From NCBI GenBank assembly GCA_033977485.1, contig CM066983.1, positions 104,593,080 to 104,657,079 on the forward strand: a stretch of DNA of 64,000 nt. The letters are read 5' to 3'. Under the pieces are notes generated by a model. The model saw only the letters and a program-made list of their open reading frames with translations, was not told the origin of the DNA and searched no databases. The stretch is from Hydrangea macrophylla (taxonomy: Eukaryota > Streptophyta > Magnoliopsida > Cornales > Hydrangeaceae). Both the position numbers and the translations under genes were made by a program. Positions 8,417 through 56,807 of this stretch are shown here, piece after piece. Within the stretch, counting starts at the first letter, position 1; the number at the start of each line of letters is the position of its first letter.

Positions 8417-8999
8417 TGTAACACCCTGTAATTTTTATTTTCATTAATAAATAAATATTTCTTTTTAATTCTATTTATAAATTTTTGTTTGGGGGTCAAA
8501 CCGTAATTTTTATAAATATAGAAAATACTTTCTATGATTTTGAAACAATATCTATATTTTTGTATAAACCGGAATTTATTTTCTACGTTAATATGGTTTT
8601 CTGTATTTTTATTTCAACCATAAAATACCAGTTTTTGTTTTAATCTGCGTCTATACCGCGACTTGGGTGTGGGAGCACATGAGCTCAACCACACTGTGCG
8701 ATTCCCGTAGCTTTCTTGGAGCCCAAAATTTCCCAGTGTATATATATATATATATATGTATCTCTCAATCTCACAGTCTCTCATCTCTCAACCCTCTGTA
8801 ACTCTCAATCCCTCTCAACTTTCTCTCCCTCCCTCAAGAACAACACACACACACACACACATATTCAGATTATATATATAGATACACATACAAATACACA
8901 CATATATATATATATATAATTCAAGAACGGAGGAGAATTCGAACAACGGAATCGACAGTGGAATTTATCGGTCTCAAATTTTCAGTCTAATCACCCTCT

Positions 9000-9018
9000 G
9001 TGAGTATTATAAACTCAC
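9000..9018 (+). promoter_or_regulatory. Splice-donor-like hairpin in LTR A
   Basis: GTGAGT (9000-9005) pairs perfectly with ACTCAC (9013-9018) around a 7-nt AT loop. The same device is at 11100-11115, 19496-19511, 44195-44213 and, reversed, 57504-57522. GTGAGT is the plant 5' splice-site consensus; a role in splicing is inferred. Confidence 0.65.
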
Positions 9019-9418
9019 TCTCAAAGTTTATATATGTATATTTCAGTGTATATAGATGTGTATATACATATATATGAATAATCACCATTGAAATTTGAAA
9101 ATTGGAGTATTACAAAAGTTAACCAAAATCAATTCCGTGAATTGGGAATGAAAGATCTTAGTCCCAATAAGGTGCGGTTCGAATACTATGGCTTAATTCA
9201 TCCGTATCGCGACGTATCGTTGATTTAAAGTTTTGTCACCTCTCGGTTTTACGTGAAATCCGAGAGCTACGATTGAAATTAGTTTAAACCGATCACGTAT
9301 TCATAATCCTTGCGAAAAAACGAAGAAATTCATATATTATATGTCTTGGTTGAAGCAGAATTAAGAAATGGGTCAAAAACAGGTTTCAAACTCGTAACAG
9401 GGGAGAAACTGCTGATGC

Positions 9419-9492
9419 CAATCGATTGGTATGATTACCAATCGATTGGCACTTTTACCAATCGATTGGCACTTTTACCAATCGATTGGCAT
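9419..9492. repeat. Four CCAATCGATTGG palindromes in LTR A
   Basis: Four perfect 12-bp palindromes, CCAATCGATTGG, are spaced by about 8-10 bp of T-rich sequence. The 10-bp core CAATCGATTG is the motif that fills both chromovirus LTRs. Confidence 0.9.
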
Positions 9493-9948
9493 TTTTCAGC
9501 ACTGACGACTTTTACTAAAACGGTCATAACTTTCTCTAGAAAACTCGAAAACGCGCATCGTTCGAAGCGTTGGAAACTAGACTCAAAGACCTTTCATTTG
9601 ATATGTAATTCATCCATAAAAATTATAACTCATTTTTAAGGGCATTGTTTCAAAGTGAACCTGCTTGTGTACTAGTAGCTGTAAAAGCGTATTAATGTAG
9701 TTTTTGATGAATTTACTTCTTGTTTCATATATGACTTGATAGTTTAGATCGTGAGTGCTAACTCAATGATTCTAAGTACATTGTACCTTGTTAATAAAGA
9801 AGGATAAAAAAGACTTGATTTCTCGTACGTTTGTTTTGGTGTTACAATTTCATGAACATTGACATGCATGATAGGGTCGAGGTGGAGTCGACATGCATGG
9901 TGTGTGAGAAAGCGTGGAAAAAGAGTAGAGAGTGGCGGTCTGGTGGTC

Positions 9949-10318
9949 GACCTCAATATCGAGCGGATATTATTCCTGGTATTGGAGGCGGTAGTGTGGT
10001 GTACGACTTAGATATCGATCAGATATTATTCCTGGTATCTAAGGCGCGTGTTTTTGGATATTGAGCGGATATTATTCCTGATATCCGAAGCGATGGTATG
10101 TGTGTGATCGACCCAGATATCGAGCGGATCTTATTCCTGTTATCTGAGGCGATAGCGTATTGTGTGACCCCAATATTGAGCGGATATTATTCCTGGTATT
10201 GGAGGCGATGGTGTAGTGTGTGACTTGAATATCGAGCGGATATTCTTCCTAGTATTCAAGGCAACGATGTGTTGTGCGACCTAGGTACTAAGCGGATATT
10301 ATTCCTGGTATCTAAGGT
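9949..10318 (+). repeat. Seven-unit covarying hairpin array in LTR A
   Basis: Seven units of about 40 bp, one every 42-57 bp, share the central sequence GAGCGGATATTATTCCTG. The flanking arms differ between units but stay complementary. Examples are TTAGATA/TATCTAA at 10004-10044, GGATAT/ATATCC at 10053-10091, CAGATA/TATCTG at 10109-10150, CCAATA/TATTGG at 10166-10207 and TTGAATA/TATTCAA at 10221-10263. Units one and seven pair with a bulge. Spacers contain GTGTGTGAC-like words. No ORF accounts for the pattern. Confidence 0.85.
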
Positions 10319-10512
10319 AATGGTTTTGGTGGAGTCGGGTTGTTGAGAGAAAAGAGTCAGAAAGATGAGATGTTACATTGTTCATACACGGTCGCATATT
10401 TATTGCTCATTATTATCCCCCGTGTAATACCCTGTATTTTGGTATTTTAATAAGACCTGGTATTTCATTTCTATACTCGTATAAACTTTCCCTTCTTTTT
10501 GGTGAAATTTTG

Positions 10513-10755
10513 ATACCAATCGATTGACATATTCCCAATCGATTGACACTTTTCTGATACCAATCGATTGATAAGTATCCCAATCGATTTACATTCAACC
10601 GACTAAAAGTGATGACGTGTCATTATCCCAATCGATTGCCATTTTATTCCAATCGATTGCCATTCATCTCAATCGATTGACATTGTTTCCAATCGATTGA
10701 CTACAAATATCTGTTACCAATCGATTGACTGGTGTCTCAATCGATTGACATAACC
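10513..10755. repeat. CAATCGATTG palindrome cluster 1 (5' LTR)
   Basis: Nine perfect copies and one degenerate copy of the 10-bp palindrome lie upstream of the TATA box, mostly as YCAATCGATTGACAT or YCAATCGATTGCCAT at 15-30 bp spacing. The 3' LTR equivalent (18890-19150) has one extra 21-bp unit. Some copies carry a C-to-T-type decay (CAATCGATTT). Confidence 0.9.
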
Positions 10756-10809
10756 TGAGAAATGTTTTCTTCTTTCCTTCAGCTTTAAACGCGTGGCACT
10801 CCCTTATGC

Positions 10810-10820
10810 CTATATATATG
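10810..10820 (+). promoter_or_regulatory. TATA box of the 5' LTR promoter
   Basis: CTATATATATG lies between the palindrome cluster and a GA/CA-rich leader, where a U3 promoter is expected. The identical site in the 3' LTR is at 19206-19216. The transcription start is predicted about 30 bp downstream but cannot be seen. Confidence 0.6.
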
Positions 10821-11099
10821 TTCCATATTTATGGCCTTGGTTCATTTTTGCAGCTTGAGAGAGAGAGATATATACCTCTTGTGAGATATATACATATACA
10901 CATATATATATCTCTATATCTACATATATATACACACCCTCACACACACTCACTGCCGTGGCAGCTGGGAGGAACGAGAAGAAGCAGAAAGAAGAAGAAA
11001 GAAGAAGGAGGAGACAGAGAGAGGGCTGGACAGAGAAGAGGAGAAAGAGAGAGAGAGTTTGAAGGTTTCAAGCTTTAAACACACCCAAACGCACCCTAG

Positions 11100-11115
11100 G
11101 TGAGTTCTAACTCAC
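11100..11115 (+). promoter_or_regulatory. Splice-donor-like hairpin GTGAGT-TCTA-ACTCAC
   Basis: AG|GTGAGT is a perfect donor consensus and pairs fully with ACTCAC after a 4-nt loop. The 3' LTR copy is at 19496-19511. The same hairpin occurs in LTRs A and B. Acceptor-like sites downstream (TTTACTTCAG near 12204 and CCTTTGCAG just before the ATG at 12852) would allow a spliced leader; this is inferred. Confidence 0.65.
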
Positions 11116-11224
11116 TTGGTCTCTTTATGTGATGTTTATGCAAGTTATTACGATGTTTAGATGAGTTAAATGCATGTAGTGCACGTTTATATATGCTGTT
11201 TTTACAAACTGCTGGAGAAGACGT

Positions 11225-11395
11225 AGTTCTAATCGATTGACATGATCTCAATCGATTGACATCAGTTGCATCCCAATCGATTGAATAGGATTTCAATCGA
11301 TTGACATTATTCCAATCGATTGACATATTTCTCAATCGATTGACATAACTTTTGTTCCAATCGATTGAACTTTTGTTCCAATCGCTTGACATGAT
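11225..11395. repeat. CAATCGATTG palindrome cluster 2 (5' LTR)
   Basis: Six perfect and two single-base-variant copies lie downstream of the splice-donor hairpin. In the 3' LTR (19622-19790) all eight are perfect, so the two variants arose after insertion in the 5' LTR or were repaired in the 3' LTR. Confidence 0.9.
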
Positions 11396-11697
11396 CAGTA
11401 CATGGTTTTCTTTGCCTGTTTATTATATAAGAGGTTTAGTTGTTCGATTTCTGATTCGGCAATTCCATTATGCGATTATGGGGTAGACAGGAGAAATGTG
11501 ACACCAAAGATTTATGGATAATGAATAAAAAGTAATATGAAGACGTGGGTTGACGTGTTGATTTTGATATGAGTTTGATATCCGTTTCTTTTAATCCGAG
11601 TAGTCAGGCCACATTGGGAGTTTGTCATGTGTCGATGTAGAATGGAACGTAAGTAGGTTTGGTAAGTTTTGGGAATGGTTCGTGGATGGACGTTCGG

Positions 11698-12022
11698 TCA
11701 TGATATGCTCTTAAAAGCGGTGAGCTGTGCATATGCTCTTAAAAGCGGTGAGCTGGACCAAGAAGTCTTAAGATAGACTGGATGATCTATGATATGCTCT
11801 TAAAAGCGGTGAACAGGACCATTGTTCTTAAAAGCGGTGAGCTGGGATCACTAGTAGATGACGTTGAGTCGTGGCAATAAGATTGATATGCCTTGTTCGA
11901 AACGTTATATCCCTGAAATGCGGTGAACAGGACCATTGTTCTTAAAAGCTGGGGACAGACTGACGTGGAGTCCATGACATGCGGTGAGCTGTTCATATGC
12001 TCTTAAAAGCGATGGACAGAAT
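11698..12022 (+). repeat. Hairpin array in the chromovirus 5' LTR
   Basis: A repeated linker TCTTAAAAGCGGTGA separates short hairpins. GAGC/GCTC stems occur at 11722-11738 and 11986-12002, and GAACA/TGTTC stems at 11811-11827 and 11925-11941. The last unit also forms CTGTTCAT/ATGGACAG with one wobble pair. Stem bases differ between the two classes while pairing is kept. The identical array is in the 3' LTR at about 20096-20418. Confidence 0.65.
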
Positions 12023-12235
12023 AAGGGTGTATCCCTAGAGTTAAACGATTGAGTCTGTTCATGACATCTGAATACGTTGAGTTCGGTATTTGAGTAACAA
12101 GACGATAAGGGTCGGTTCATAAGGATGAATAGAAGAACAAGATAATGTTATTTTATAATAAGATGTTAACTCGTGTTTTTTTTATAAACTTGTGTTTACT
12201 TCAGATAACTGGTACCTCGTTAGTTTATGCTCACT

Positions 12236-12286
12236 CAGCTCTCAGTAAGCTGACGGCCTTTTATTGCCTGGACATTCCCCGTCCAG
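12236..12286 (+). promoter_or_regulatory. Paired terminal hairpins of the LTR (chromovirus)
   Basis: CAGCT-CTCAGTA-AGCTG (12236-12252) is followed by CTGGAC-ATTCCCC-GTCCAG (12268-12286). Counterparts are in LTR A (21190-21238), LTR B1 (45834-45884) and LTR B2 (55841-55897). Sequences differ but both stems are kept, which suggests an RNA structure in the R/U5 part of the transcript. Confidence 0.7.
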
Positions 12287-12690
12287 AATATCCTGCCCCT
12301 TGTTTTACAGGTGATGACCAGTACAATGATGAGTGTTATCCAGAGGAAGGCCCCACCGATGATGGTTACGCCAGGAAGGATTATCCTTATGCCAGTTGAA
12401 AACTGAAGACGTTATAGTTAGATTTAATTTCAGTTGTTCTGTTAAACTTTTGTTAACGGGTACTTGGACATTTGTTGTCTTCAGACCTGTTGTGATCCTG
12501 TGGACCATACTCTGATAGTTTGTAATAGTTAGCACTTTGTGCTATTTTCAGTTGATTACTGTTGCTTTTCTTTTGGACTAGTACTGCGTGGTGTGGATTA
12601 TTAGTGACTTTCACCTGTCATTCCTTATGGACCCATAAAGGAAATTTATTTTTCTCTATTTATGCTGCTCCGGGGCGTGACAGGGTTTTT

Positions 12691-12702
12691 TGGTATCAGA
12701 GC
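12691..12702 (+). promoter_or_regulatory. Primer binding site, initiator Met tRNA
   Basis: TGGTATCAGAGC, the usual plant sequence complementary to the 3' end of initiator methionine tRNA, begins 8 bp after the 5' LTR ends. It primes minus-strand DNA synthesis. Confidence 0.9.
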
Positions 12703-12851
12703 CTGAGTTTGGTACTCTAGGGGAGTGATACTGTCGTTCACCGATCATTCCACACCATCTGGTCCTAGTGTGTTAAGATTCTTTGAGATGAGATATGAGT
12801 ATAAGATAAGTTCGTCTTCCTGACGATAGATAGTTTCCTTTGCAGGATAGC

Positions 12852-13865
12852 ATGGATCCGGAGTTTCACCTGTTTGTTACCGATGCTTATGGAGGACATA
12901 TTATCCATGGAGATACCGTGGAGCCAGCTGGCCCAGATTTTTATCATGAGCGTGTGTGCCAGATAGCTAGTCGACATTTAGAGGAGGACATGTGGAGAGC
13001 ACTTTATGTGACCAGGAGTACTCACCCGACCCAGATGCGCATGGATGCCTACCACTTAGCGAGAGTTGGCAGAGACATTTGCCAGGAGATGTTGCGACTA
13101 GTTTTGAGTAAGCCAGAGATTGATGAGATTGAGTTGAGAGCCATTGTAGCCGGTCCACCAGAGCCTGTAGTTGCACCAGCACCAGCTCCAGCAGCCCCAC
13201 CATCACCAGTGCCCGACGTACCCGTCCCAGAGCCAGAGCATGAGCCGATTGAGGATGAGGAGGATGTAGAGCCTCAGGATGAGCATCCCGATGAGGACAT
13301 GGGTGGAGATGGAGAGGAGGAGCCGATAGATGATGAGGACCCAGTAGAGGATGAGCATGCAGACGATGCAGATGATGATGAAGCTGAGGATGACCCCGAG
13401 GAGCCAGAGTTTGAGCCAGAGGATCCAGTACCAGACCCAGAGGCTATTGAGGCAGACGTAGTAGTAGATGAGGAGGATGACCCCGAGGAGATAGTTGTGC
13501 CAGAGGTACCAGTTGTGCTTCAGATACCAGCCGGACCGATTATGCATATGGCAGCCATGGCCGATATGACAGTAGGATGGATAGCTCAGATGATAGCACA
13601 GCCAGCAGATTTTGTTATGGGAGAGGTGGCTATAGCAGGAGCTCTAGACATAGCTGACGGTTTTGCTGCAGTAGCTGTTGATGTCGCTAACCAAGCGATA
13701 GTAGACGTGATGGAGGACGATGATGCAGAGATGATAGAGGATTGGGATATAGGGGTAGTAGTTGGAGATCTTGTCGCACCAGTTGAGGATGATCCACTCG
13801 AGGAGATGGATATAGACCCAGAGGACGAGGCACCACCAGCAGGATCAGATGCTGACGACTTTTGA
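12852..13865 (+). CDS. Extra acidic ORF upstream of gag (unknown function)
   Basis: This 337-residue protein is encoded between the PBS and gag. The first ATG (12852) follows a CCTTTGCAG acceptor-like site. Residues about 1-100 look like a small folded, partly helical domain (MDPEFHLFVTD at the start, LEEDMWRAL later). Residues about 105-125 are Pro/Ala-rich. Residues 125-220 are extremely acidic, with runs of Glu and Asp, and a second acidic patch closes the protein. The segment at about 225-280 is Ala/Val/Ile-rich and may be helical. I recognise no gag, envelope, protease or host family. About 360 bp of noncoding DNA with a TATATATATAC stretch separates it from gag. The long open frame in a young element suggests it is maintained, but expression is unproven. 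Confidence 0.7.
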   Translation: MDPEFHLFVTDAYGGHIIHGDTVEPAGPDFYHERVCQIASRHLEEDMWRALYVTRSTHPTQMRMDAYHLARVGRDICQEMLRLVLSKPEIDEIELRAIVAGPPEPVVAPAPAPAAPPSPVPDVPVPEPEHEPIEDEEDVEPQDEHPDEDMGGDGEEEPIDDEDPVEDEHADDADDDEAEDDPEEPEFEPEDPVPDPEAIEADVVVDEEDDPEEIVVPEVPVVLQIPAGPIMHMAAMADMTVGWIAQMIAQPADFVMGEVAIAGALDIADGFAAVAVDVANQAIVDVMEDDDAEMIEDWDIGVVVGDLVAPVEDDPLEEMDIDPEDEAPPAGSDADDF

Positions 13866-14223
13866 GTCAGGATCGGCAGGGTGTAGATTTTGTTAGTTTA
13901 TATTAGGACATATTGTCCACTAGATTTTTGGGAGCTTGAGAGATAGCTATTTGACCATAGCTTTGTATAGTATTAGCTGACTTTAGTTGTTGTAACTCTT
14001 GTCCCATATGGTACACAGTTTGATTAGTGTGTACTATGCGGTACATCTTTTGATATATATATATACGAGCAGTACTTTTGTTATATTTTTGGTTGTTGCA
14101 TTTGTGATGTGTTGTTTAGTAGAATTGTTAGTCTAGCTGTTTCTTATTCTATCTTGAGTTCGTTTCTACGAGAAGACTTTCAGCTGATCAATATGTCGTT
14201 TGTAGGCGATACTCGTTATCATC

Positions 14224-14973
14224 ATGGTAGGACCTTTGAGAAATCACCAAGCACGTAATGGAGCACCTATACCGGAAGGGATGGATCCAACGGGAATTTT
14301 TGAAGCATTTATGCAGAGGATGGAACATGTGGGGGATACATATAATCACTCCACCCACCAGAGACCTTTTGCACCCCCGCCACCAAGACAGACTGGAGAT
14401 AAGTTATTAGCAAATTTTCGTGGGTTACGTCCCGAAAAGTTTGATGGACTAACAGAACCATGGAAAGCAGAGCAATGGATAAGAGAGATGGAGTTAATAT
14501 TTGGAGCATTGGAATGCAATGAACAAGAGAAACGTCGCCTTGCTACGTTTCAGCTCACTTATGCCGCCGCAGATTGGTGGGAAGCTGAGCAGGCCACTAT
14601 TGGGATCGATGCCGCTAGAGCTATGTCATGGGAGACATTCAAAGGCAGATTTTTGGAGAAGTATTTTCCAGAAGATGAGAGAGATCAACAGGAAAGGAAC
14701 TTTCTCAATTTAATCCAAGGAGGATGGAATGTACGGGAATACACAACACAGTTCGAGCGTTTATCCAGATTTGCTCAGCATATGATAGACACGCCGCAGA
14801 AGAAGGTTAAGAGATTTCACCAAGGACTGAACCCCCACCTTAGACATATGATGGTTGGTCATCTGAACCAGTCGTATGAGGAAATTGTTAGATTTGCTAC
14901 AGGATTAGAAAAGGATGCTAATCCAGTACAGCAATCACAGACAAATCGACCTCAGTTGTCACGAGGGTTTTAA
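14224..14973 (+). CDS. gag: Gag, capsid part, ending at an in-frame TAA
   Basis: The first 249 codons of the gag-pol frame encode the capsid-like retrotransposon gag domain: FRGLRPEKFDG near residue 60, then EQWIREME, TYAAADWWEAE and FLEKYFPEDERDQ. The protein packages element RNA in the cytoplasm. Translation stops at TAA 14971-14973. The same frame then continues without another stop for 1256 codons, starting with CAG AGA. Family members normally have one continuous gag here, and CAA-to-TAA is a single C-to-T change, so a recent nonsense mutation is the simplest explanation. Readthrough is possible but the position, before the zinc knuckles, is unusual for programmed recoding. Confidence 0.85.
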   Translation: MVGPLRNHQARNGAPIPEGMDPTGIFEAFMQRMEHVGDTYNHSTHQRPFAPPPPRQTGDKLLANFRGLRPEKFDGLTEPWKAEQWIREMELIFGALECNEQEKRRLATFQLTYAAADWWEAEQATIGIDAARAMSWETFKGRFLEKYFPEDERDQQERNFLNLIQGGWNVREYTTQFERLSRFAQHMIDTPQKKVKRFHQGLNPHLRHMMVGHLNQSYEEIVRFATGLEKDANPVQQSQTNRPQLSRGF

Positions 14974-17900
14974 CAGAGAAATTTTCCTAATCGACCACCA
15001 AGAAATACCCAAGGATGGAGACCTCAGGAAAATTTTCAAGGAAACAAGAGAATCTGGGAAGGAACCAGGAAACCACAGCAGAGTTATAATCGACCTCAAC
15101 AATATCGCCAGCAGGGGTCACAGCCACAGGCATTACTAACAGCCCCACCCAGCAATAGTGGAGGATGTTTTAACTGTGGAAAGCCAGGACATATTGCAAG
15201 GAACTGCACAGCCCATAGATCTAATCGCAGGCCAGATATCGTCTGTCGCAACTGCAACAAACCAGGGCACGTGAGCAAGGATTGTCGTGCGCCACGAGGA
15301 GGATACTACGGGGCACCAGTGCAAGGAATTCAAGGACCTCCTGATCAGACGAGGATGAATGCTATTATCCCAGAAGAAGCAGGCTTTAATGCTGATGAGC
15401 AGCAACATTTGGAAGGTACACTTGTACTCTTTCATAGTCCAGTTAAAGCTTTATTTGATACTGGAGCCGCACGTTCTTTTATTGCTGTTAAGATTGTGCG
15501 TCAATTGGGTTTAGAACCCCAGACACTTGAGTCAACACTGAATGCTGTGTCACCATTAGGAGTGACAGTTAAGTTGAGTAAAGTGTGTAGAGATTGCCCT
15601 TTGACTTTGGGAGATAGGAATCTGCCAGCAGACTTAGTCGTTCTGTCGATGTCAGAATTTGATGTTATCCTAGGGATGGATTGGTTAACTAAGTACAGTG
15701 CCAATTTGGATTGCCCTACTAGGACGATTGTATTTCCAATACAAGGAAAGCCGACGATCAGATTTCAGTGTCAACCGACAAGCGACATGTTTCTTACGAG
15801 TAGTTTGGCTACGATCATTAGTACGAGTACGGAGCTTAAGATGGATCAAATTCCTATTGCACGAGACTTTCAGGATGTATTTCAGGATATTAAAGGACTT
15901 CCACCGAAAAGAGAAATAGACTTCTGTATGGAATTAGTACCTGGTACATTGCCTATTTCTAAGACTCCATATAGGATGGCACCAACCGAGATGTTGGAAT
16001 TGAAGAAGCAAGTTCAAGAACTCGAGGATCTAGGATTTGTTCGACCGAGTACGTCGCCTTGGGGAGCACCAGTTCTGTTTGTAAAGAAGAAGGACGGAAC
16101 ACTTCGACTCTGTATAGACTACAGGGAGTTGAACAAGGTTACGATTAAGAATAGATATCCGTTACCTCGGATAGATGATCTATTCGACCAGTTACAAGGA
16201 TCTAGGATCTTTTCCAAGATCGATTTGCGTTCAGGATACCACCAATTGTTAGTTCGACCAGAGGATGTATCGAAGACTGCATTCAGGACAAGATACGGGC
16301 ATTACGAGTTTCTAGTTATGCCTTTTGGATTGACGAATGCGCCAGCAGTATTTATGGACTTGATGAATAGAGTATTCAGACTATATCTGGATAAGTTCAT
16401 TATTGTGTTCATTGATGATATACTGATCTACTCAAAGACAGAAGAGGATCACAAGGAGCATTTACAAGTTGCCTTGCAAACACTTCGAGATAGTAAGTTG
16501 TATGCAAAGTTCAGCAAGTGTGAGTTTTGGCTACAGGAAGTCAAATTCTTGGGACACGTTATATCTCAGGAAGGTATTTCGGTAGACTCATCTAAGATTG
16601 ATGCAGTCTTAAGCTGGAACAGACCGACAAATGCGACCGAAGTCAGAAGTTTTCTGGGTTTAGCAGGATATTACAGAAGATTCGTAGAAGGGTTCTCTAA
16701 GTTAGCAGGGCCATTGACGAATTTAACAAGGAATGAGACGAAGTATGAATGGACAGACAAGCATGAGGGTGCATTTCAGGAGTTAAAAGAAAGATTGACT
16801 TCTGCACCAGTACTCGCATTACCTAAGAGTGGAGAAAAGTACGTGATCTACAGTGATGCATCGTACCAAGGACTTGGATGTGTGCTTATGCAAGATGGGA
16901 ATGTTATCGCATATGGATCAAGACAATTGAAGGTACATGAGAAAAATTATCCCACGCATGATCTGGAATTAGCAGCAATAGTGTTTGCATTGAAAATTTG
17001 GAGACACTATCTCTATGGAGAAAAGTTTGACTTATTTTCCGATCATAAGAGTCTGAAGTATTTGTTCTCTCAAAAGGAGTTGAATATGCGACAGCGGAGA
17101 TGGATGGAGTTACTCAAGGACTATGACTTTTCTTTGCAATACCATCCCGGCAAAGCAAACGTAGTAGCAGATGCTTTGAGCCGTAAACCTCGATTAGTGA
17201 TCGCTGCATTACTAATTAGAGAATGGAGAACATTGGAAGAAATTGCTGAATTTGATCTTCAGCCAGTGGAGCCAATGAAAGGACAACATTTTGGATGTCT
17301 GATGGTACAACCGACTTTAATCAGTCGTATCATAGAGGCTCAACAGACAACAGAAGATTTGAAGTTATGGTTTGCCAAGATGTCAGCCAAGGAACCAGAA
17401 GTCTGGAGTATAAGTACAGACGGAGCCTTACGATGTAAAGGTAGACTCTGTGTACCTGACGAAGGAAGTCTTCGAAAAGACATATTGGATGAAGCTCATA
17501 AGTCACGGATGACTATTCATCCTGGAGGTACAAAGATGTACAAGGATCTGAAGAGAAATTTTTGGTGGGAAGGAATGAAGAGAGATGTGGCAGCGTATGT
17601 TTCTCAGTGTCTTACTTGTAAACAAGTAAAGGCAGAACATCAGAAACCACCTGGATTGTTACAGCCGTTACCTATTCCTCAATGGAAATGGGAACACATA
17701 ACCATGGATTTCGTGGTAGGATTGCCGAAGTCACAGCAGAATCACGATGCTATATGGGTAATCGTGGATCGACTTACTAAGACGACACATTTTATTGCCT
17801 ATAGCATGACATACTCAGTAGAACGTTTGAGCCGAATGTATCTACAACACGTTGTACGATTACATGGAGTGCCTGTATCTATTGTGTCAGACAGAGATTC

Positions 17901-18744
17901 GCGCTTTACTGCAGAATTTTGGAAGAGTCTCCAGACAGCGATGGGAACGACATTGAACTTGAGTTCAGCTTTTCATCCTCAGACAGATGGACAGACGGAA
18001 CGAGTTAATCAAGTGATGGAAGATATGTTACGAGCTTGTGTCATTGATTTTGAGAGTTCTTGGGAGATACACTTACCTCTGATTGAGTTTGCCTATAATA
18101 ATAGTTATCATTCGAGCATAGATATGGCACCATTCGAAGCTTTGTACGGGAGACCTTGCCGATCGCCGCTATGTTGGACCGAAGTCGGAGATAGTCAACT
18201 TCTTGGGCCAGAGATGGTACGAGAAACCAGTGAGAAGATTCAAGTTGTACGTGAGAAGATGAAGACAGCCCAGACCAGATACAAGAGTTATGCTGACAAG
18301 CGACGCAAAGACTTGGAGTTTGCCATTGGAGATCACGTATTACTCAAGGTTTCACCTGTTCGAGGAATCGTCAGATTTGGTCAGAAAAGGGGCAAATTAT
18401 CGCCACGTTTCATCGGACCATTCGAGATTCTGGAGCGTGTTGGAAAAGTTGCTTATCGCCTTGCGTTGCCACCAAAGATGTCAGGAGTGCACAACGTTTT
18501 TCACATCAGTATGTTGAGGAAGTGTGTTCACAACCCAGCGCACGAGATCAACTTTGAGGATATCGAAGTCAACAGCGACGTTACGTTCAATGAAGGACCT
18601 GTTCATATTCTAGATCGAGGAATCAAGAAACTCAGGAACAAGGAGATCCCGTTAGTCAAGATTCAGTGGAAGCATCATGATGAAGGAGAAGCTTCGTGGG
18701 AACTAGAGTCAGAGATGCGCGAGAAGTTTTCGTTTTTATTTTAA
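14974..18744 (+). CDS. pol: Gag nucleocapsid plus Pol polyprotein with chromodomain
   Basis: This open continuation of the gag frame encodes, in order, two CCHC zinc knuckles ([14 protein letters not shown] at 15166 and [14 protein letters not shown] at 15244), an aspartic protease with a DTGA active site (about 15457), and reverse transcriptase from about 15960 with FIDD as catalytic box (Asp codons at 16414-16419). RNase H (YSDAS) and integrase with an HHCC finger and DDE residues ([16 protein letters not shown]) follow. A C-terminal chromodomain-like segment ([11 protein letters not shown]...SWELESEM) ends the protein. Reading from the gag ATG, the catalytic RT aspartates would be residues 731-732 of about 1506. 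All catalytic residues look intact. Chromodomains direct insertion to heterochromatin marks. Only the upstream TAA compromises expression. Confidence 0.95.
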
Positions 18745-18783
18745 ACCTTGTTGCTTTTGGATTTCGAGGACGAAATCTTTTGT

Positions 18784-18797
18784 TGAGTGGTGGATGA
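18784..18797 (+). promoter_or_regulatory. Purine-rich tract before the 3' LTR
   Basis: TGAGTGGTGGATGA lies immediately upstream of the 3' LTR and would serve as the plus-strand primer. It is short and interrupted by T compared with the AGGGGGAGAA tracts of related elements. The preceding GAGGACGAAATC is typical of chromovirus ends. Confidence 0.5.
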
Positions 18798-21077
18798 TGT
18801 AATACCCTGTATTTTGGTATTTTAATAAGACCTGGTATTTCATTTCTATACTCGCATAAACTTTCCCTTCTTTTTGGTGAAATTTTGATACCAATCGATT
18901 GACATATTCCCAATCGATTGACACTTTTCTGATACCAATCGATTGATAAGTATCCCAATCGATTTACATTCAACCGACTAAAAGTGATGACGTGTCATTA
19001 TCCCAATCGATTGCCATTTTATTCCAATCGATTGCCATTTTATTCCAATCGATTGCCATTCATCTCAATCGATTGACATTGTTTCCAATCGATTGACTAC
19101 AAATATCTGTTACCAATCGATTGACTGGTGTCTCAATCGATTGACATAACCTGAGAAATGTTTTCTTCTTTCCTTCAGCTTTAAACGCGTGGCACTCCCT
19201 TATGCCTATATATATGTTCCATATTTATGGCCTTGGTTCATTTTTGCAGCTTGAGAGAGAGAGATATATACCTCTTGTGAGATATATACATATACACATA
19301 TATATATCTCTATATCTACATATATATACACACCCTCACACACACTCACTGCCGTGGCAGCTGGGAGGAACGAGAAGAAGCAGAAAGAAGAAGAAAGAAG
19401 AAGGAGGAGACAGAGAGAGGGCTGGACAGAGAAGAGGAGAAAGAGAGAGAGAGTTTGAAGGTTTCAAGCTTTAAACACACCCAAACGCACCCTAGGTGAG
19501 TTCTAACTCACTTGGTCTCTTTATGTGATGTTTATGCAAGTTATTACGATGTTTAGATGAGTTAAATGCATGTAGTGCACGTTTATATATGCTGTTTTTA
19601 CAAACTGCTGGAGAAGACGTAGTTCCAATCGATTGACATGATCTCAATCGATTGACATCAGTTGCATCCCAATCGATTGAATAGGATTTCAATCGATTGA
19701 CATTATTCCAATCGATTGACATATTTCTCAATCGATTGACATAACTTTTGTTCCAATCGATTGAACTTTTGTTCCAATCGATTGACATGATCAGTACATG
19801 GTTTCCTTTGCCTGTTTATTATATAAGAGGTTTAGTTGTTCGATTTCTGATTCGGCAATTCCATTATGCGATTATGGGGTAGACAGGAGAAATGTGACAC
19901 CAAAGATTTATGGATAATGAATAAAAAGTAATATGAAGACGTGGGTTGACGTGTTGATTTTGATATGAGTTTGATATCCGTTTCTTTTAATCCGAGTAGT
20001 CAGGCCACATTGGGAGTTTGTCATGTGTCGATGTAGAATGGAACGTAAGTAGGTTTGGTAAGTTCTGGGAATGGTACGTGGATGGACGTTCGGTCATGAT
20101 ATGCTCTTAAAAGCGGTGAGCTGTGCATATGCTCTTAAAAGCGGTGAGCTGGACCAAGAAGTCTTAAGATAGACTGGATGATCTATGATATGCTCTTAAA
20201 AGCGGTGAACAGGACCATTGTTCTTAAAAGCGGTGAGCTGGGATCACTAGTAGATGACGTTGAGTCGTGGCAATAAGATTGATATGCCTTGTTCGAAACG
20301 TTATATCCCTGAAATGCGGTGAACAGGACCATTGTTCTTAAAAGCTGGGGACAGACTGACGTGGAGTCCATGACATGCGGTGAGCTGTTCATATGCTCTT
20401 AAAAGCGATGGACAGAATAAGGGTGTATCCCTAGAGTTAAACGATTGAGTCTGTTCATGACATCTGAATACGTTGAGTTCGGTATTTGAGTAACAAGACG
20501 ATAAGGGTCGGTTCATAAGGATGAATAGAAGAACAAGATAATGTTATTTTATAATAAGATGTTAACTCGTGTTTTTTTATAAACTTGTGTTTACTTCAGA
20601 TAACTGGTACCTCGTTAGTTTATGCTCACTCAGCTCTCAGTAAGCTGACGGACTTTTATTGCCTGGACATTCCCCGTCCAGAATATCCTGCCCCTTGTTT
20701 TACAGGTGATGACCAGTACAATGATGAGTGTTATCCAGAGGAAGGCCCCACCGATGATGGTTACGCCAGGAAGGATTATCCTTATGCCAGTTGAAGACTG
20801 AAGACGTTATAGTTAGATTTAATTTCAGTTGTTCTGTTAAACTTTTGTTAACGGGTACTTGGACATTTGTTGTCTTCAGACCTGTTGTGATCCTGTGGAC
20901 CATACTCTGATAGTTTGTAATAGTTAGCACTTTGTGCTATTTTCAGTTGATTACGGTTGCTTTTCTTTTGGACTAGTACTGCGTGGTGTGGATTATTAGT
21001 GACTTTCACCTGTCATTCCTTATGGACCCATAAAGGAAATTTATTTTTCTCTATTTATGCTGCTCCGGGGCGTGACA
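18798..21077 (+). repeat. 3' LTR of the chromovirus
   Basis: This 2280-bp copy is nearly identical to 10423-12682. The main length change is a third copy of a 21-bp unit ending CCAATCGATTGCCATTTT near 19020-19045. The TATA box is at 19206-19216, the donor hairpin at 19496-19511, the hairpin array at about 20096-20418 and the terminal hairpins at about 20632-20682. Confidence 0.95.
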
Positions 21078-21189
21078 CCCCGTGACTTTTGTCGAAGTTG
21101 GAACCTTGAAAATATTGCTTTTAAAGTTGTATTGCACTGTTGTTCATACGCTTATATATACATTGCGAGTATATGTTTATTTTGCTCAC

Positions 21190-21238
21190 CAGCTTGCATA
21201 AGCTGACGGCGTTGATGCGTCCTGGACTCTATGTCTAG
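21190..21238 (+). promoter_or_regulatory. Paired terminal hairpins of LTR A
   Basis: CAGCTT-GCAT-AAGCTG (21190-21205) and a second stem built on CCTGGACTCTATGTCTAG are separated by GACGGCGTTGATGCGT, which is nearly identical in LTR B. The second stem uses a G-U pair where LTR B has another combination. Confidence 0.65.
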
Positions 21239-21579
21239 ATTTCAGGTCAGGAGCAGCCAGAGTATTTTGACTATACTACTTAGAGTCAGGAGACTTTCCA
21301 GGAGGCTGCTTTATATTTCCTATGTCTTTTTAATTTCGGGTTGTAATAAACTAGTTTTAGACATTTGAATAAGGGCGTTTTGTGCCTAAAACCTGGACTT
21401 ATGTAATAGTTTTAGTAAGTTTTAATTTTGGAGCTTATGTTTTATTAGTAACGTTTCTTTAGAAATGATGTTTAAGTTATTTGTTGCAGGGATAATTAGT
21501 CATACTCACTTGTCACGACCTACGAGTCCATAAAGGAAATTAAATGCTTTCCTGTATTATGCTACGTCGGGGCGTGACA

Positions 21580-35131: not shown

Positions 35132-36743
35132 TAAGTATACCAGCCCCTTAAATGTTTTACAATTTTTTATTTTTATTTTTATTTTTTTTCCAGTCTGTTA
35201 ATTCTAATGAGCCCTAATAAACCATAAGGCATATTGTTTTGTTCTTCGATTGTTTTTTTTTTTTTTGCCCAACTACTTCTAATGAGTGAGTACTAATAAA
35301 ACATTAGTCCTACTTCTTTCTTCTATTTTTTTTTCCCTTAATGGACTCTATTTTCCTCCTTTGTCTGAAGTTCCTAATATTTGCTTTCTTATTACTCCAT
35401 TTGTAATGCCCCGCCCCGCCCCGACCCAACACGGGTCCCGCAAGCGAAGGGGGTGCTAATGTAAAAATAAAATAAAATAATTAACATATAACCAAGAGCG
35501 GAAGGACCGAACATACTTGTAATACTTCGAGTCCTAGGCCCGAAGCTTATCTGAAAAACTTTCTCTTTAGAAAAACAAACGTTTAAACTTTAAAATCATT
35601 TAAAGTCCAAAGCTCTGAAACATTTAAACTTTGAAACCTCAAAACTTTGATACCAGTTTACAACGCCTCGAGTCCTAGACTCTGAGAGTTACTGCGGAAG
35701 CATAGAATAGCCTTTCAAATCTTTGATGGGAAAACAAAAGACTCACAGATCTGAGTAAAACTATAGCGGAAGCATTCAACTAGTCTTTTGAAAAGTTTTG
35801 CTTGTCAATTCAAAAGAAACAGAAAATCTTTATCGGTTCATTAAATGAACAACAGTGCAGCGGAAAACATACAGATCTGGTAAACAATTATCAATCTCCT
35901 TCTCAAACTTTAGAATACAATCTTTAAATAGCAACTCAAACTTGGTTTCACATTTCGAAAAGTAATTCAATGATCTGCTTTCTTTTTCTCAAACGTTAGA
36001 AACTCTTATAATAACAACTCAAGGTTTTTAAGAATACAAAGTATCACGATCTCACAATTTCTTCCCTAAACATGATCTTCACGAGTAAACTCTACTCCTG
36101 GCTTAAAAATTATATCCATCATTTGGAAAACAATAATAACACAGAAATCGGATTTTCATTTGAAAACTATCATTTCTTGAAACAAATCATTTTCAAGATA
36201 AGCAACGAAAAATCAGAGTTAAGCTATCTCTTTATTTAAAAGCGGGTGAACTAACATTTGTCCAATTAAATCATAACATGCTCTTCGAACCACCATTTAA
36301 ATTAAAATCCCATAAACTCGACCTTCAAACAAAGCGGAAGTTCATCAAATCTCGGGGGCCTTACCCTTATTTATATCACTTGAAAAGGAAATGTTTGATA
36401 GTCCATAAGCCAAAAAGGCTCGTATAGTCATATAACCACACAATAACATCTGTTATATAACATGCGTGAGTGCAATGAATGCCAATGTCATGTATGAAAA
36501 TCACTTTTCATGCATTTTCAAACACTCACCCTCAATCGTCAATATCATTACCCGGACCATGGGCTTCCCGTCCACGTAGGCCTAGCCTCAAACGTGCGGG
36601 ACTTTGGGCCTTACGAATTACACGGAGGCCTAGCCTTTACCGTTACGGGGGTTTCTTGCAGCACATCCCGCAATTCGAGTTCCTAGTGGTACCCATCTCA
36701 CACACCTACCCACAAATCCGGGATTTCTAACTTTTCAAAACAA

Positions 36744-36871
36744 AATCCCTCCTAGAGGGTTTTATGCACGGAAGCCTCTAAGGTCTTCCCTTTTCAAAAC
36801 CTGGAAGTCTCTGAGACCTTCCTTTTTTCTTTTTTTTTTTTTTTAAATCGAAAGCCTTTAAGGTCTTTCAT
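36744..36871 (-). repeat. Covarying hairpin array in LTR C
   Basis: The units pair as CCCTC-CTA-GAGGG, GGAAG-CCT-CTA-AGG-T-CTTCC, GGAAG-TCT-CTG-AGA-C-CTTCC and GAAAG-CCT-TTA-AGG-T-CTTTC. Between units both the outer stem (GGAAG/CTTCC against GAAAG/CTTTC) and the inner stem (CCT/AGG against TCT/AGA) change on both sides together. The linker CTTTTCAAAAC is repeated. AAATC-CGG-GATTT precedes the array. Confidence 0.8.
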
Positions 36872-42424: not shown

Positions 42425-44194
42425 GAGAAGGGAAAAAAACTGAAGAAACTGCTTAAAGAAAATATTGAGGAGAAGGAAAATTTCTTTACTAACATTCAAT
42501 ATGTCAATACAAGACCAAACGTGATAGTACATCTACGGCTAGGCAAAGGTACCTATTTTCCTTTCTGTACCTATTTTCTTTTCTTTTATCACTCAAATTT
42601 GTTTACTTTTTAATTGCTATTTGAGTCTTCTATTGTTTTAACTGTAATACGTTATTTATACGAACCATTTTATAAAGTTAATAATTTAAAGCGCCAATAT
42701 GGTATGTTAAAAATTGAAATAGCGTGGCAGCCAATTTGAGTCTTCATTGGAATTCATCTTGTATAGAGTTTATAATTTAGAGCAACCAGTATATTATGTT
42801 GGAATTCAATTAGCATGACATTTTCAATTGATACCTTTTTTCTTTTATTTTATCACTCAAATTTGTATAGGTTTTAGCTGCTATTTGAGTCTTCTATTGT
42901 TTAATTGTAATACGTTGGAAATTTAAATAGTGTGACATTTTCACCTAGGCTCGCCTTCATCGAATTCATCTAGGGCTCATATTTTTGGCCAATTTTAGAT
43001 TTTTCATTACCTTTGAGGTAAATTTTAGCAGTTTCACTTTAGTCCAAAAATGTACCTTTTTCTTTTCTTTCATCACTCAAACTTGTATAGGTTTTAATTG
43101 CTATTTGAGTCTTCTATTGTTTGTTATACAGACCATTTTATAAAGTTAATAATTTAGAGCAGTCAATATGTTATGTTAAAAATTCGAATAGCGTAGTCTT
43201 CTATTGTTTAACTGTAATAAGTTGGAAACTTAAATAGCTAGCATGACATTTTCACCTAGGCTCGCCTTCATTGAATTCATCTGTAATAACCTGCATTTCC
43301 ATTTAATTTAAAATTCATGTCCATATTTAATTTATGTGTATTTGCATTGGCATATTTAAATTCAATTAGCATGGTCTGCTTTTACTTTAATTCCAGTCAC
43401 TTGTTTGGAATATTAATTTCTTATCTAATTCACATTTAAAGTTTATTGGGGGCCAAACTGCAATTTTACAAAAGTTAGTGATACCAGTATGGATTTCAAA
43501 ATCTGTATTTCAAAATGGTGAAAATAACTTCTATTGACTCAATCAGTATTTTTATGAAACCAGAAAATCAATTCTTACGTTAAAATGAATTTCCTGTATT
43601 TTTGTGGTGACCACCGCGCCCCGAAAATACCAGTTTATGTCCAAAACTGTCTGCGCTGTACTAAACTTCCCCAGATTTTGGAAGTGACGTAAAGTTGGAC
43701 ATGACATATGCTTTATTTCCATTAATGGCAAGTGATCATTGGCTTGTGCTTTGTTTGGATCTACCTATCTTATGTGTGTTATTGTTGTATCCATAAGCTA
43801 ATTTCCCAAACACATCTACATTGCCCCCTAGGAGTCTACTCTTAACTCTTGGTTAATCTGGAGAGTTATATCAGTGTATATACGTATCTCATATCTGCTG
43901 AGTATTCATGTATATTAGGATTTAGCATTTTAATCCAACTCATTTGTTGAGTAAACAACAAAGATCTTGGCCCCCAACTTTGTGTCCTCTATATAGGCAT
44001 ATACATTTCACTCCTTCTCCTTACACACACACCTTCTCCTTCTGCACAATACAATCACAGAGAGAAAAGAGTGAGTTTGAGAGTTAATTTCAGAAATTAT
44101 TTAGAGAGGGAAAGCTTAAACTCCATAGCCAAAGCTTGGAGTTGGGTCCTTAATTGCTTAGTCTTTCTCAACAACTATTAATCTTCTTATCACA

Positions 44195-44213
44195 GTGAGT
44201 ATTACTAACTCAC
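44195..44213 (+). promoter_or_regulatory. Splice-donor-like hairpin in LTR B1
   Basis: GTGAGT-ATTACTA-ACTCAC. It lies about 200 bp downstream of the TATA box, as in the chromovirus and LTR A. The mirror copy in B2 is 57504-57522. Confidence 0.65.
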
Positions 44214-44641
44214 TAAGAATGTAATTACATGTCTATTTACTGTGTGTTTGTTTAATTTTGTAAGACACCATGGTTGATCTCACGTATGAACTCCATGGCT
44301 TGAAAATCAAGATTTCTCAATCTTAACTAAAATCTGTTTTTAGAGATGATTATGAATGATTATACACCACAAATGCTATGTTTGAAGTTTTAGAGCTTAA
44401 TTTATTCATATGGCAAAGTATATTGAAAATGAAGTTTTGACATGTTTTAGTTTTTCCTAAAATTAGAGAGCTATGGATCAAATGGTGTTAAATTAATCAT
44501 AGATTCTTAATCCTTGTTTAAAAACAAAGAGATCCATATATAACATGATAAACATACTTACAGATTTGAAATGGGTCAATTTTAGACCCTGTTTTCTGAA
44601 ACAGAACAGTTCCTGCGGAGAAGGTGAAGCCTCAACTTCAT

Positions 44642-44905
44642 CTCGCGCCACGATCGCGCGCGCGAGGAATCGCGCGAGCGGCCCGCGCGCGCGAGGTAGG
44701 CGTCTCCAGGCAGACGTAAGAGTTTATATATATAAATGAAAAATTGGCTGGTCGCGCGAGCGAGGGTCGCGCGAGAACCCCTTCGCGCGAGCGATCCGCG
44801 CGCGCGACCTTGGCTTTCTCAGGCAGACAGAAAAGTTATAATATAAAAAGGAAAATGGGCATATCGCGCGAGCGACACTTCGCGCGAGCGGCCCGCGCGC
44901 GCGAG
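44642..44905. repeat. CG-palindrome tract in LTR B1
   Basis: Three blocks of TCGCGCGAGCG and GGCCCGCGCGCGCGAG words are separated by about 60-70 bp of AT-rich DNA that is itself repeated (GGCAGACRKAARAGTTATA type). Confidence 0.9.
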
Positions 44906-45316
44906 TTCTGACAGTTTCTGTTTTTGTCTGTTTTGTGTTTAAGGTCTGTTTGGTTCAACTTTTTAGTACTGTTAAGGCTCTGTTTGGGAATTTAGTTGAT
45001 CAGAACTCTATTTGGTTATGTTTGAATGATTAAAACATTGTAGTATGACTCATTAATCCCCGTACGCGTGTTGTTCCTTTAATTCAGCATTTTTTGTTTT
45101 CGTTTAAGTGCATACCATTCATGTGGGTCAGTGGTACATGCATAGGGGTGTCAGTCTGTGTGGAAAAGAGTAATGGTAGTGTGGAAAGAGTATGAGTTTG
45201 TGTTTGTGGTCGTGGTTGTGGTTGAGTATGAGTTTGTGGTTGTGGTCGTGGTTGTGGTTGTGGTTGTGGTTGAGAATGTGGAGAGGGTATCTTTGAAATG
45301 CGACGGTGGCAAATAT

Positions 45317-45574
45317 GGACACTCCCTGACGCCCATGGAAGCGTTAAAGTGTGTGAAGCCGAACTCGGACATTCCCTGGCACCCATGGTAGTGCTAAAGT
45401 GTGGCCTACGGACACTCCCTGATAACTCGAGTCTGGATACTGTGTGAGGGGTTGCCCCGGTATTTGCATGGCGGTTAGGGTATTCAAAGTGTGAGGCATT
45501 GGACACTCCCTGGTACCCCGGACCAAAGTGTGAGGCAAGCTGGACACTCCCTGGCGCCCCGTTGCTAAAGTGTG
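45317..45574 (+). repeat. Covarying hairpin array in LTR B1
   Basis: Five units share the frame GGACACTCCCTG...AAAGTGTG. Bases just inside the frame pair but vary: GACGC/GCGTT (45317-45353), GGCAC/GTGCT (45367-45403), TGATA/TATTCA in a long variant (45410-45492), TGGT/ACCA (45501-45532) and GCG/TGC with wobble (45542-45574). ACACT and AGTGT also pair as the outer stem. Confidence 0.8.
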
Positions 45575-45833
45575 GCTATCTGAGTGTTTCAAAGATACCA
45601 GGAGTAGGATAGTGGGTTGTTGTGGCTGTCGAGAGAAAAGAGTCGGCAAGATGAGTGTGGTGCATTGTTCTCATACACGGTCCCATCTGCGTAAATTTAC
45701 CCTCTTTAATAATGTTGTGGTTGTTTTCTAAACGAGCTCTTTATTCATAATTATAAACTTGTGGGTTTAATTTGGAATTGGAAAAAGGTAATTGGGTATG
45801 TTTTATATTCAAAGTCATGTTTTTAATACTCAC

Positions 45834-45884
45834 CAGCTTCTTGAAGCTGACGACGTTGATGCGTCCTGGACATTCGTGTTCAGG
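45834..45884 (+). promoter_or_regulatory. Paired terminal hairpins of LTR B1 with a UUCG loop
   Basis: CAGCTT-CTTG-AAGCTG (45834-45849) is followed by CCTGGACA-TTCG-TGTTCAGG (45865-45884), an 8-bp stem with one wobble pair capped by a UUCG tetraloop in RNA. GACG/CGTC in the spacer can form a third stem. Confidence 0.75.
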
Positions 45885-46800
45885 CTTTTCAGGTTATAAT
45901 CAGGAGGAATCATACGATTATGCTAATTGAGAATGGCTGCTTCTGGAATGAAGAAACTGTTTATTATATGCTTTAAGTTTATCTGTTTGAGTTTTAAACT
46001 GTTTTGTTTTAAGGATGACTGTAACAGACACTAAGTTATTATTTTATTTTCAAGGCGGTCTGTGCCTTAGTTGACCCCGGTTCATAATATGTAATAAGTT
46101 AGAAAATTTTTGTAAGCCTTGATTGCTTTACTCTGATTATTATGTTTTGTTGTTCGACGTTTGGGACGGAATCGATCCTTCAAACTGTCGCGACCTACGG
46201 GTCCATAAAGGAAATTAAACGCTTTCCTTATTTATGCTACGTCGGGGCATGACATCATCTAAGGTTAATATTTTTGGCCAATTTCAGATTTTTCATCATT
46301 TTTGAGGTAAATCTTAGCAGTTTCACTTTAGTCCAAAAATGTACCTTTTTTTTCTTTTATTTTTATCACTAAAACATGTATAGGTTTTAATTGCTATTTG
46401 AATCTTCTATTGTTTGAACTGTAATACGTTATTTATGCGGACCATTTTATAAAGTTAATAATTTAAAATAGCCAGTATGTTATGTTGGAAATTCAACTAA
46501 CGTGACTTTTTCACCTAGGCTCGTCTTCATTGGAATTCATCTTTTATATAGTTAAATAATTTAGAGCATCCAGTATATTATGTTGGAATTCAAATAGTAT
46601 GACATTTTTACCTAGGCTCGCCTTTATTGAATTAATCTAGGGCTAAATATTTTTGACCAATTTTAGCTTTTTTTTATCAATTTTGAGGTAATTGCTATTG
46701 GAGTCTTATAATATTGTTTTAAGTTTAATATGTAGAATTCATCCAGGACTAATATTTTTGGCAAATTTTAGATTTTTCATTAGTTTTGAGGGAAATCTTA

Positions 46801-54335: not shown

Positions 54336-54396
<61 letters not shown>
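53939..54396. repeat. AAT/AGT microsatellites in a repeated context
   Basis: (AAT)n at 53939-54020 and 54338-54396, with (AGT)n at 54245-54266. Each AAT array, and a third site at 54163, is preceded by TTTCATATCATTTCATACTCAT, so the flank and microsatellite were duplicated together. Confidence 0.9.
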
Positions 54397-55410: not shown

Positions 55411-56151
55411 ACTCAAAAAGGCAAAAACCAGCCCCAAAGTTTAAAGTTTTATTTATGTAGTTAAATTTGAAGCCATGTCCCATGTGGTGTGTCACGCCCC
55501 GACGTAGCATAAATATGGAAAGCGTTTAATTTTCTTTATGGACCCGTAGGTCGCGACAGTTTGAAGGATCGATTCCGTCCCAAACGTCGAACAACAACAA
55601 TATAATAATCAGAGTAGAGCAATCAAAGCTTACGAATATTTTTCTAACTTATTACATAATACAGCACGGGGTCTCTAAAGGCACAAACTGCCATGAAACA
55701 AAATAATAACTTAGTGTCTATTACAGTTATCCTTATTACAAAATCAGTTTAACTTAAAACATATGAAAGCAAATTCTGTTTCCAGCAGTTGTTCTCAATT
55801 CGCATAGTCATAAGATTCCTCCTGGTTATAACCTGAAAAGCCTGAACACGAATGTCCAGGACGCATCAACGTCTTCAGCTTCAAGAAGCTGATGAGTATT
55901 AAAAACATAACTTTGAATGTAAAACATACCCCTTTACAAATTTTCTCTTTTTAAGTTTGTAAATTCAATGGTTTAATCATGGAAAGAATTCAATTATAAA
56001 ATAACAGAGAATACATTTAAAAGTCGTTCATTCATTAAAACATATGACCATGTATGAGACGATGCACCACACTCATCTTACCGACTCTTTTCTCTCGACA
56101 AACACAACAACCCACTATCTCACACCAGTATCTTTGAAATACTCCGATAAC

Positions 56152-56490
56152 CACACTTTAGCACAGGGGCCAGGGAATGTCCAGTTTGCCTCACACTTTG
56201 GTCCGGGGTACCAGGGAGTGTCCAGTGCCTCACACTTTGAATACCTAAACCTCCATGCAAATACCGGAGGAACCCTCACGCAGTATCCAGACTCGGGTAT
56301 CAGGGAGTGTCCGTAGGCCACACTTTAGCACTTCCATGGATGCCAGGGAATGTCCAAGTTCGGCGTCACACACTTTGACGCTACCATGGTCGTCAGGGAG
56401 TGTCCAGTTTTTCCACCGTCGTATTTCAAAGACACTCTCACCCCAATCTCAACACGTCACACTTTGGTACACAACAACCAGGGAGTGTCC
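56152..56490 (-). repeat. Covarying hairpin array in LTR B2
   Basis: Read on the minus strand, units share GGACAYTCCCTG...AAAGTGTG and pair internally as TGGT/ACCA (two units, different loops), TGACG/CGTCA, GGCAT/GTGCT, GGC/GCT and TGATACC/GGTATTCA (long variant). Where B1 has GGCAC/GTGCT, B2 has GGCAT/GTGCT, a C-G to T-G change that keeps pairing. Confidence 0.8.
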
Positions 56491-56807
56491 ACAACACAAT
56501 CTCAATCTCAATCTCATACTCTTTTCCACACTGACCCTTACTCTTTTTCACACTGACTAACACCCACATGCATGTATAACTGACTCCGCATGTATGTCAT
56601 GAACCTTAAACATAAGGGAATTTAATGAATTAAAGAAACACGTACGTACGGGGATTGATAGGTCACAATTCATTATTTTAATCATCTACACATAATCAAA
56701 TAGGATTCTGCTTTAATAAATTTCCCAAACCGAGCTTTAACAGTTCATAAAATACCACCCAAACAGTTCCTTAACACAAAATAAGCAAGAACTCGAAATT
56801 GCCAGAA

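Follow-up and report, generated by a model that had tools for sequence, protein, structure and literature searches.

Tandem covarying hairpins, probably a structured sense-strand RNA domain, in LTRs related to Ty3/gypsy elements of Hydrangea macrophylla

Here we describe array A, a row of seven tandem hairpins in a solo LTR (LTR A) of Hydrangea macrophylla, in which compensatory changes between the arms exceed shuffled and slid controls; a paired array at the matching place in a second LTR family, B, gives a weaker result in the same direction. Conserved sense-strand RNA structure in A and B is well supported. We favor, with some reserve, the reading that array A is a structured sense-strand RNA domain of a Ty3/gypsy retrotransposon, a hairpin row with a putative cis docking role on the full-length RNA. 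Selection for structure, which the earlier note on this DNA had proposed, is backed by the covariation between units, the tolerance of G-U pairs on the sense strand, and the family B array. Positions (Table 1) are those of the window, that is, the whole 64-kb stretch of DNA that was analysed; loci outside it carry handles beginning with L.

Table 1. Positions of the arrays, their units and the surrounding elements in the window
Feature	Position	Strand	Remarks
Solo LTR A, left part	8417..10422	+	TG start TGTAACACCC at 8417; TSD CATCA 8412-8416 / 21580-21584
Solo LTR A, right part	21083..21579	+	End GGGGCGTGACA (21567-21579); TSD CATCA
Younger Ty3 element nested in LTR A	10423..21077	+	LTRs 10423-12682 and 18798-21077; TSD CCCCG 10418-10422 / 21078-21082
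Array A, seven tandem hairpins	9947..10323	+	Ungapped unit alignment, consensus fold, covariation test
Array A, unit 1 (U1)	9947..9994	+	
Array A, unit 2	10003..10050	+	
Array A, unit 3 (U3)	10049..10096	+	
Array A, unit 4	10108..10155	+	
Array A, unit 5 (U5)	10164..10211	+	
Array A, unit 6	10220..10267	+	
Array A, unit 7	10276..10323	+	
Conserved flank directly after array A	10338..10401	+	Common to LTRs B1 and B2; identity 82.5% and 79.7%
Array C, in the inner element's LTR (weaker)	11703..12030	+	Conserved CTTAAAAGCGGTG with varying arms; repeat 11703-11844, rest by eye
Distant LTR-like sequence D, array	36573..36869	-	Five hairpins of two kinds
Related solo LTR B1	43282..46254	+	TSD TCATC
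Array of LTR B1	45286..45599	+	16-bp closing stem and five hairpins ACACT-CCC-TGxxxx...xxxxA-A-AGTGT
Related solo LTR B2	55490..58405	-	TSD imperfect, CTCCA/CACCA
Array of LTR B2	56127..56436	-	Homologous to the B1 array
GTGAGT...ACTCAC site, LTR A	9000-9018		
GTGAGT...ACTCAC site, LTR C	11100-11115		
GTGAGT...ACTCAC site, LTR B1	44195-44213		
GTGAGT...ACTCAC site, LTR B2	57504-57522	-	

The seven tandem hairpin units counted in the earlier note were recovered as an alignment without gaps over 48 bases, each unit having a conserved core between its 5' and 3' arms, at spacings of 56, 46, 59, 56, 56 and 56; all the covarying stems that had been named are present in these units. The 20-base core was matched seven times at up to three mismatches and never in 100 shuffles. 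What had been called a conserved loop is indeed kept in all units as a core, its 18 bases being exact in three of the seven (U1, U3 and U5) and differing by one or two bases in the others, but part of it is stem. The RNAalifold consensus contains 14 pairs, with an 11-bp outer stem whose 3' arm bulges out an invariant A and, inside, an asymmetric AGC internal loop followed by an inner GGA/UCC stem closed by UAUUAU. When the window was searched with a covariance model of array A, the hits were units of that array only (six of the seven). No exact complementary 8-mer that could form a closing stem was detected between 9700-9950 and the sequence 3' of the array. A coding repeat was ruled out, as the unit spacing is no steady multiple of three. 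The stems of microRNA precursors are longer than the approximately 11 bp seen here, and the seven microRNA-family matches obtained with Rfam across 8400-12700 (E up to 1) all scored below the gathering score, none of them over the array, so that a microRNA precursor was rejected as well.

In the simple nine-pair stem, 58 of 63 cells are paired, and among the 5040 possible assignments of 3' to 5' arms, only four, the observed one included, pair as well as observed. The full 14-pair fold pairs 95 of 98 cells (96.9%), against 37-56% for slid partners. Ten cells of this fold carry two-sided changes, a number reached by none of 500 letter shuffles; the covariation score of this fold likewise exceeds all 500. 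The count of pairs with a two-sided change was reached by 110 of 500 shuffles for the full fold (four pairs) and by 8 of 500 for the nine-pair stem; letter shuffles ignore relatedness, and array A comprises seven units only. The most informative column pairs, 8-38 and 9-37, show three pair types (A-U, C-G and G-C) and two (G-C and A-U), respectively, which by our count takes no fewer than three two-sided events. Taken singly, the units fold better than shuffles (z from -1.6 to -3.2); the whole array of 394 nt does not (z -0.38).

The earlier note placed the array in "LTR A", which holds for the outer solo LTR but not for the LTR of the inner element, which begins 99 bp past the array; membership of the array in that inner LTR was rejected. 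Array A lies about 600 nt before the 3' end of the solo LTR, which has TGTAACACCC...GGGGCGTGACA ends (TG...CA) and the 5-bp TSD CATCA on both sides, and which is itself embedded in a minus-strand copia pol (RVT_2 in 7678-8403; right side by eye). The younger element has LTRs that are 98.6% alike and a PBS-like sequence at 12691; its domains include gag, RT and integrase zinc-binding, with a strong SH3_Tf2-1 match and a Chromo match of 15.9 bits, below the cut-off of 25.1. The chromovirus clade Tekay is a candidate name for this inner element; LTR A itself has no pol. Between the PBS and gag of the inner element, a 341-codon open frame (12840-13865) encodes an acidic and proline-rich product with no Pfam match.

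LTR A is related in sequence to LTRs that flank a Ty3-type gag-pol. It shares four short colinear blocks with each of LTRs B1 and B2, in the same order in all three, and one of these blocks directly follows array A. A B-type element in L022-L023 has two LTRs, the TSD TTATG, the PBS-like TATCAGAGC, and RVT_1 and Integrase_H2C2 domains, with rve below the cut-off. No further copy of array A was found in 25 10-kb stretches of this genome, where BLAST with LTR A returned short shared blocks only, none over the array.

The family B units are unlike those of array A: ACACU/AGUGU is constant and the inner stems vary. Seven rows were aligned, namely B1, B2 and five from the 200 kb adjoining the window (L018, the two LTRs of one L023 element, L035 and L036). 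By position, L035 and L036 are probably the two LTRs of one element, so that the seven rows amount to about five insertions. Pairing is retained in 479 of 488 cells (98.2%) versus 31-51% in slid versions, a control that is flattered because the structure was written from these very sequences. Three pairs show two-sided changes (the outermost closing pair, G-C to A-U, and two inner-stem pairs); 2 of 500 shuffles reached the covariation score and 31 of 500 matched the number of two-sided pairs, and 51 of the 70 pairs are invariant and hence uninformative. The whole B1 and B2 arrays fold no better than shuffles (z -0.76 and -0.71, respectively).

Identity to B1 is higher across the array and its 3' flank (45284-45690) than in the rest of the LTR for B2 (0.884 vs 0.695), L023 (0.948 vs 0.761) and L035 (0.990 vs 0.853); L018 scores 0.82 in this region, and its value of 0.376 for the rest means little, as this copy is partial. 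In B2 and L023, four 100-base blocks from 45282 (0.88-0.98) form the longest run of high identity, with poor blocks (0.47-0.62) on both sides. In L035, high identity extends through the entire 3' half of the LTR (0.88-1.00), so that the array is not distinct from its surroundings.

Each LTR contains several TATA-like matches, those that we chose lying approximately 320-710 nt from the LTR start. Upstream of the array, a splice-donor-like GTGAGT occurs in a small inverted repeat (GTGAGT...ACTCAC) in LTRs A, B1, B2 and C and in the L023 copy. No AATAAA was found in LTR B1 or the L023 copy. Downstream of the arrays, a second conserved block was observed (about 21190-21240, 45834-45885, 12236-12290 and, on the minus strand, 55830-55895), whose hairpins, CAGCTT...AAGCTG and CCTGGAC...GTCCAGG-like, vary from family to family; when the block was folded singly, both hairpins formed in A, B1 and C, and the second alone in B2.

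More distant arrays were also found. Sequence D, on the minus strand, has its 3' end at 35402; its 5' end was not found, and it has one block in common with LTR A. Its hairpins include GAAAG/CTTTC and GGAAG/CTTCC around a shared core. A two-row fold of D and its L022 copy, fitted to these rows, keeps 103 of 103 pairs with five one-sided and no two-sided changes; in one of the five hairpins (36643-36622), a pair is lost in the L022 copy. The array is 0.93-0.99 identical to that copy (0.78 in the block from 36900), like the upstream neighborhood, 37400-36400 being conserved as a whole. The whole array D folds somewhat better than shuffles (z -2.14), and array C folds no better than shuffles (z -0.22). 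L006, a contig filed under a bacterium, encodes a Ty3 RT and has a PBS-like sequence at 1235; it contains the hairpins GGAGTC/GACTCC and GAAGTC/GACTTC, which lie 30 bases from each other and have a nearly identical core. D and L006 show the hairpin style more weakly than A and B. GC-rich CGCGCGAGCGGCCCGCGCGCGCGA repeats were noticed in B and D.

A scan blind to the finding, which sought exact 5-bp stems with similar loops and a compensated difference within 250 nt, gave 30 hits, which fall at four places of the 64-kb window. Array A accounts for 21 of the hits, several being the same pair read in shifted registers; two AT-rich repeats contribute 7 and 1, and array D contributes 1. In each of five shuffled windows, the scan found zero or one place. 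A stricter scan of 264 kb of this genome yielded 10 places, whereas six shuffled sets gave 0, 1, 1, 0, 1 and 3. Of the 10 places, three (A, D and the copy of D) are in LTRs or LTR-like sequence, three (two in L021 and one in L022) are in stretches with no LTR assignment, and four are single pairs. The stretch that contains the L021 hairpins, a candidate LTR, has GGGTCGTGACA on its minus strand; these hairpins are repeated in L041, on another chromosome. A looser scan of 50 kb from another chromosome found 7 places in three of five stretches.

Further repeats of this general kind were seen by the way. In L038 (7583-8071), within those 50 kb, tandem palindromes around TGTGAAATTTCACATAA have compensated differences without a tie to an LTR, which indicates that such arrays may not be exclusive to LTRs. 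Upstream of a D-type LTR, L022 (2566-3030) contains about six hairpins with a shared GGAATCTC-like core and the stems GGTTG/CAACC, AGATG/CATCT and GGTTA/TAACC. Both arrays, having no LTR assignment, were left out of the support. Short perfect or near palindromes (CCAATCGATTGG, CCAGTCGACTGG) recur in LTRs or LTR-like stretches with a period near 20 bases, at 9418-9496, about 10511-10750, 11226-11392, the matching parts of the right LTR, and about 720-1016 of L021. Inverted repeats resembling MITE or hairpin-type elements are located at 24259-25226 and 54389-54771, 2128-2307, and 3780-3907.

Viral contigs gave one exact 20-mer match (L001), in a contig without an array, which is taken as chance, and no match to the B-flank pattern or to the RT piece. 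Ty3 RT was detected at 14 loci in contigs filed under prokaryotes, which we read as probable eukaryote contamination; L002-L006 and L011, filed under bacterial genomes, encode a Ty3 RT 61-72% identical to that of the inner element and look like plant contamination of bacterial assemblies. A compensated hairpin pair was found in one (L006) of the 13 such contigs scanned (L015 was left out), and none of the prokaryote-filed contigs with Ty3 RT matched the LTRs of the window in BLAST. L003 contains a 63-bp repeat and L007 an LTR-like stretch.

From its position between a TATA-like sequence and the LTR end, the array would be transcribed. With a transcription start near the TATA, it would lie in the 5' leader, 3' of the splice donor, and spliced RNA would lose it. 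A leader position 3' of the splice donor is the layout of the retroviral packaging signal. The array may work in cis, offering a protein a series of docking sites along the full-length RNA. Because of this resemblance in layout, packaging or dimerisation is ranked first: Gag, acting in genomic RNA packaging or dimerisation, is our tentative choice of partner by this analogy. Nuclear export or stability factors as the partner are a less likely prospect, and the same applies to a role in the control of translation or 3'-end formation.

A fold maintained in sense RNA tolerates G-U, whose other-strand counterpart is an A-C mismatch, whereas the two are expected to be equally common in a DNA dyad or cruciform. 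Cells of array A include 19 G-U or U-G versus 2 A-C or C-A, plus one U-U, and those of family B include 67 G-U versus 2 A-C, plus 7 A-G and 2 with a gap; these cells are not independent events, and the direction is the same in both families. G-U occurs in 14 of the 21 varying pairs of family B, and A-C too in 2 of those 14. As G-U cells far outnumber A-C, sense-strand RNA is favored over cruciform DNA, the other alternative in the earlier note. Outside the array, LTR B has nearly equal numbers of C/T and A/G columns (87 vs 72 in four copies), and mutation bias therefore does not account for the G-U excess. Units serving as sites for a dimeric protein, or as cruciform-forming DNA whose symmetry is kept for that purpose, would have symmetric arms that fit DNA equally well, and the short CCAATCGATTGG palindromes at 9418-9496 in LTR A may be of this dyad kind. 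Such dyads predict equal numbers of the two mismatch types, however, and the strand-specific counts, the near-even substitutions outside the array, and the variation of stem letters while pairing persists all make this explanation very unlikely.

The arrays might alternatively have arisen by mutation without selection, through copying of one arm onto the other, either by template switching or by conversion acting on the inverted arms, after which tandem duplication and conversion would have multiplied the units. Arm copying is known to produce compensatory changes in hairpins, the turnover of tandem arrays is rapid, and compensated palindromes occur in L038 without an LTR tie. Nevertheless, arm copying yields perfect complements rather than a steady G-U excess and an invariant bulged A, separate family B insertions keep their pairing via one-sided G-U steps, and identity in family B is higher over the array block than across the remainder of the LTR, all of which leave this origin improbable. 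Chance, or an artefact of reading tandem repeats, agrees with a whole-array MFE equal to that of shuffles, but is hardly credible given the core count and the arm-assignment, covariation and blind-scan controls. The array could also be an element for nuclear export, stability or translation that binds host proteins, rather than a packaging signal. The excerpted text of PMC12786077 describes RTE and MTE, structured export elements of mammalian LTR elements, and since the GTGAGT of A, B1, B2, C and the L023 copy precedes the array, the array could mark unspliced RNA; the lack of any Rfam match over array A speaks against such an element, which we consider unlikely. The reading that we prefer remains the structured sense-strand domain, putatively docking a protein in cis.

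It is plausible, but short of probable, that this is a general RNA domain of plant Ty3 LTRs, that is, a tandem row of covarying hairpins at a constant position, approximately 600-850 nt from the LTR end, with the plan kept and the unit sequence replaced in each family. Wholesale replacement of units between families would be expected if each array co-evolves with its own Gag or host factors.

The retroviral R region contains structured hairpins such as TAR and the poly(A) hairpin. The arrays resemble retroviral R-region hairpins as presented in the excerpted part of PMC3601003, where conserved stem-loops inside the LTR are attributed to RNA function, but differ in forming rows of five to seven hairpins built on a repeated core and in belonging to plant Ty3 LTRs, where families A and B have different unit sequences; the placement of the arrays in R is putative. 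Tandem arrays of plant Gypsy elements (the Retand POL-3'LTR region; TAT elements, Zea) are likewise family-specific and non-coding, according to the portion of PMC11963269 consulted; there, they are in the internal region, whereas the arrays described here are in the LTR and have covarying stems, and the terms hairpin, stem-loop and secondary structure have zero occurrences in that text. RTE and MTE, as described in the excerpt of PMC12786077, are also cis-acting folded RNA on full-length transcripts, but belong to another host and element and are likened here by description alone. Viral multi-hairpin packaging signals, too, comprise several short degenerate signals in one RNA (PMC6475782, in part); for the arrays, Gag binding is putative.

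Searches of open-licence literature, covering titles and the starts of abstracts, found no description of covarying tandem hairpins in plant LTRs, which agrees, as weak evidence, with the statement in the earlier note that none was known. Structured cis-elements in LTRs are already known, and it is the tandem, family-replaced form in plant Ty3 LTRs that appears to be undescribed.

LTR retrotransposons make up much of many plant genomes. To our knowledge, little is understood of how they pick out their own RNA for packaging, export or translation. A hairpin core that is repeated, compensated and fixed in its position within the LTR provides a precise cis-element for functional work. Family B shows that the phenomenon is broader than one array, and the turnover of arrays between families opens the question of what drives the change.
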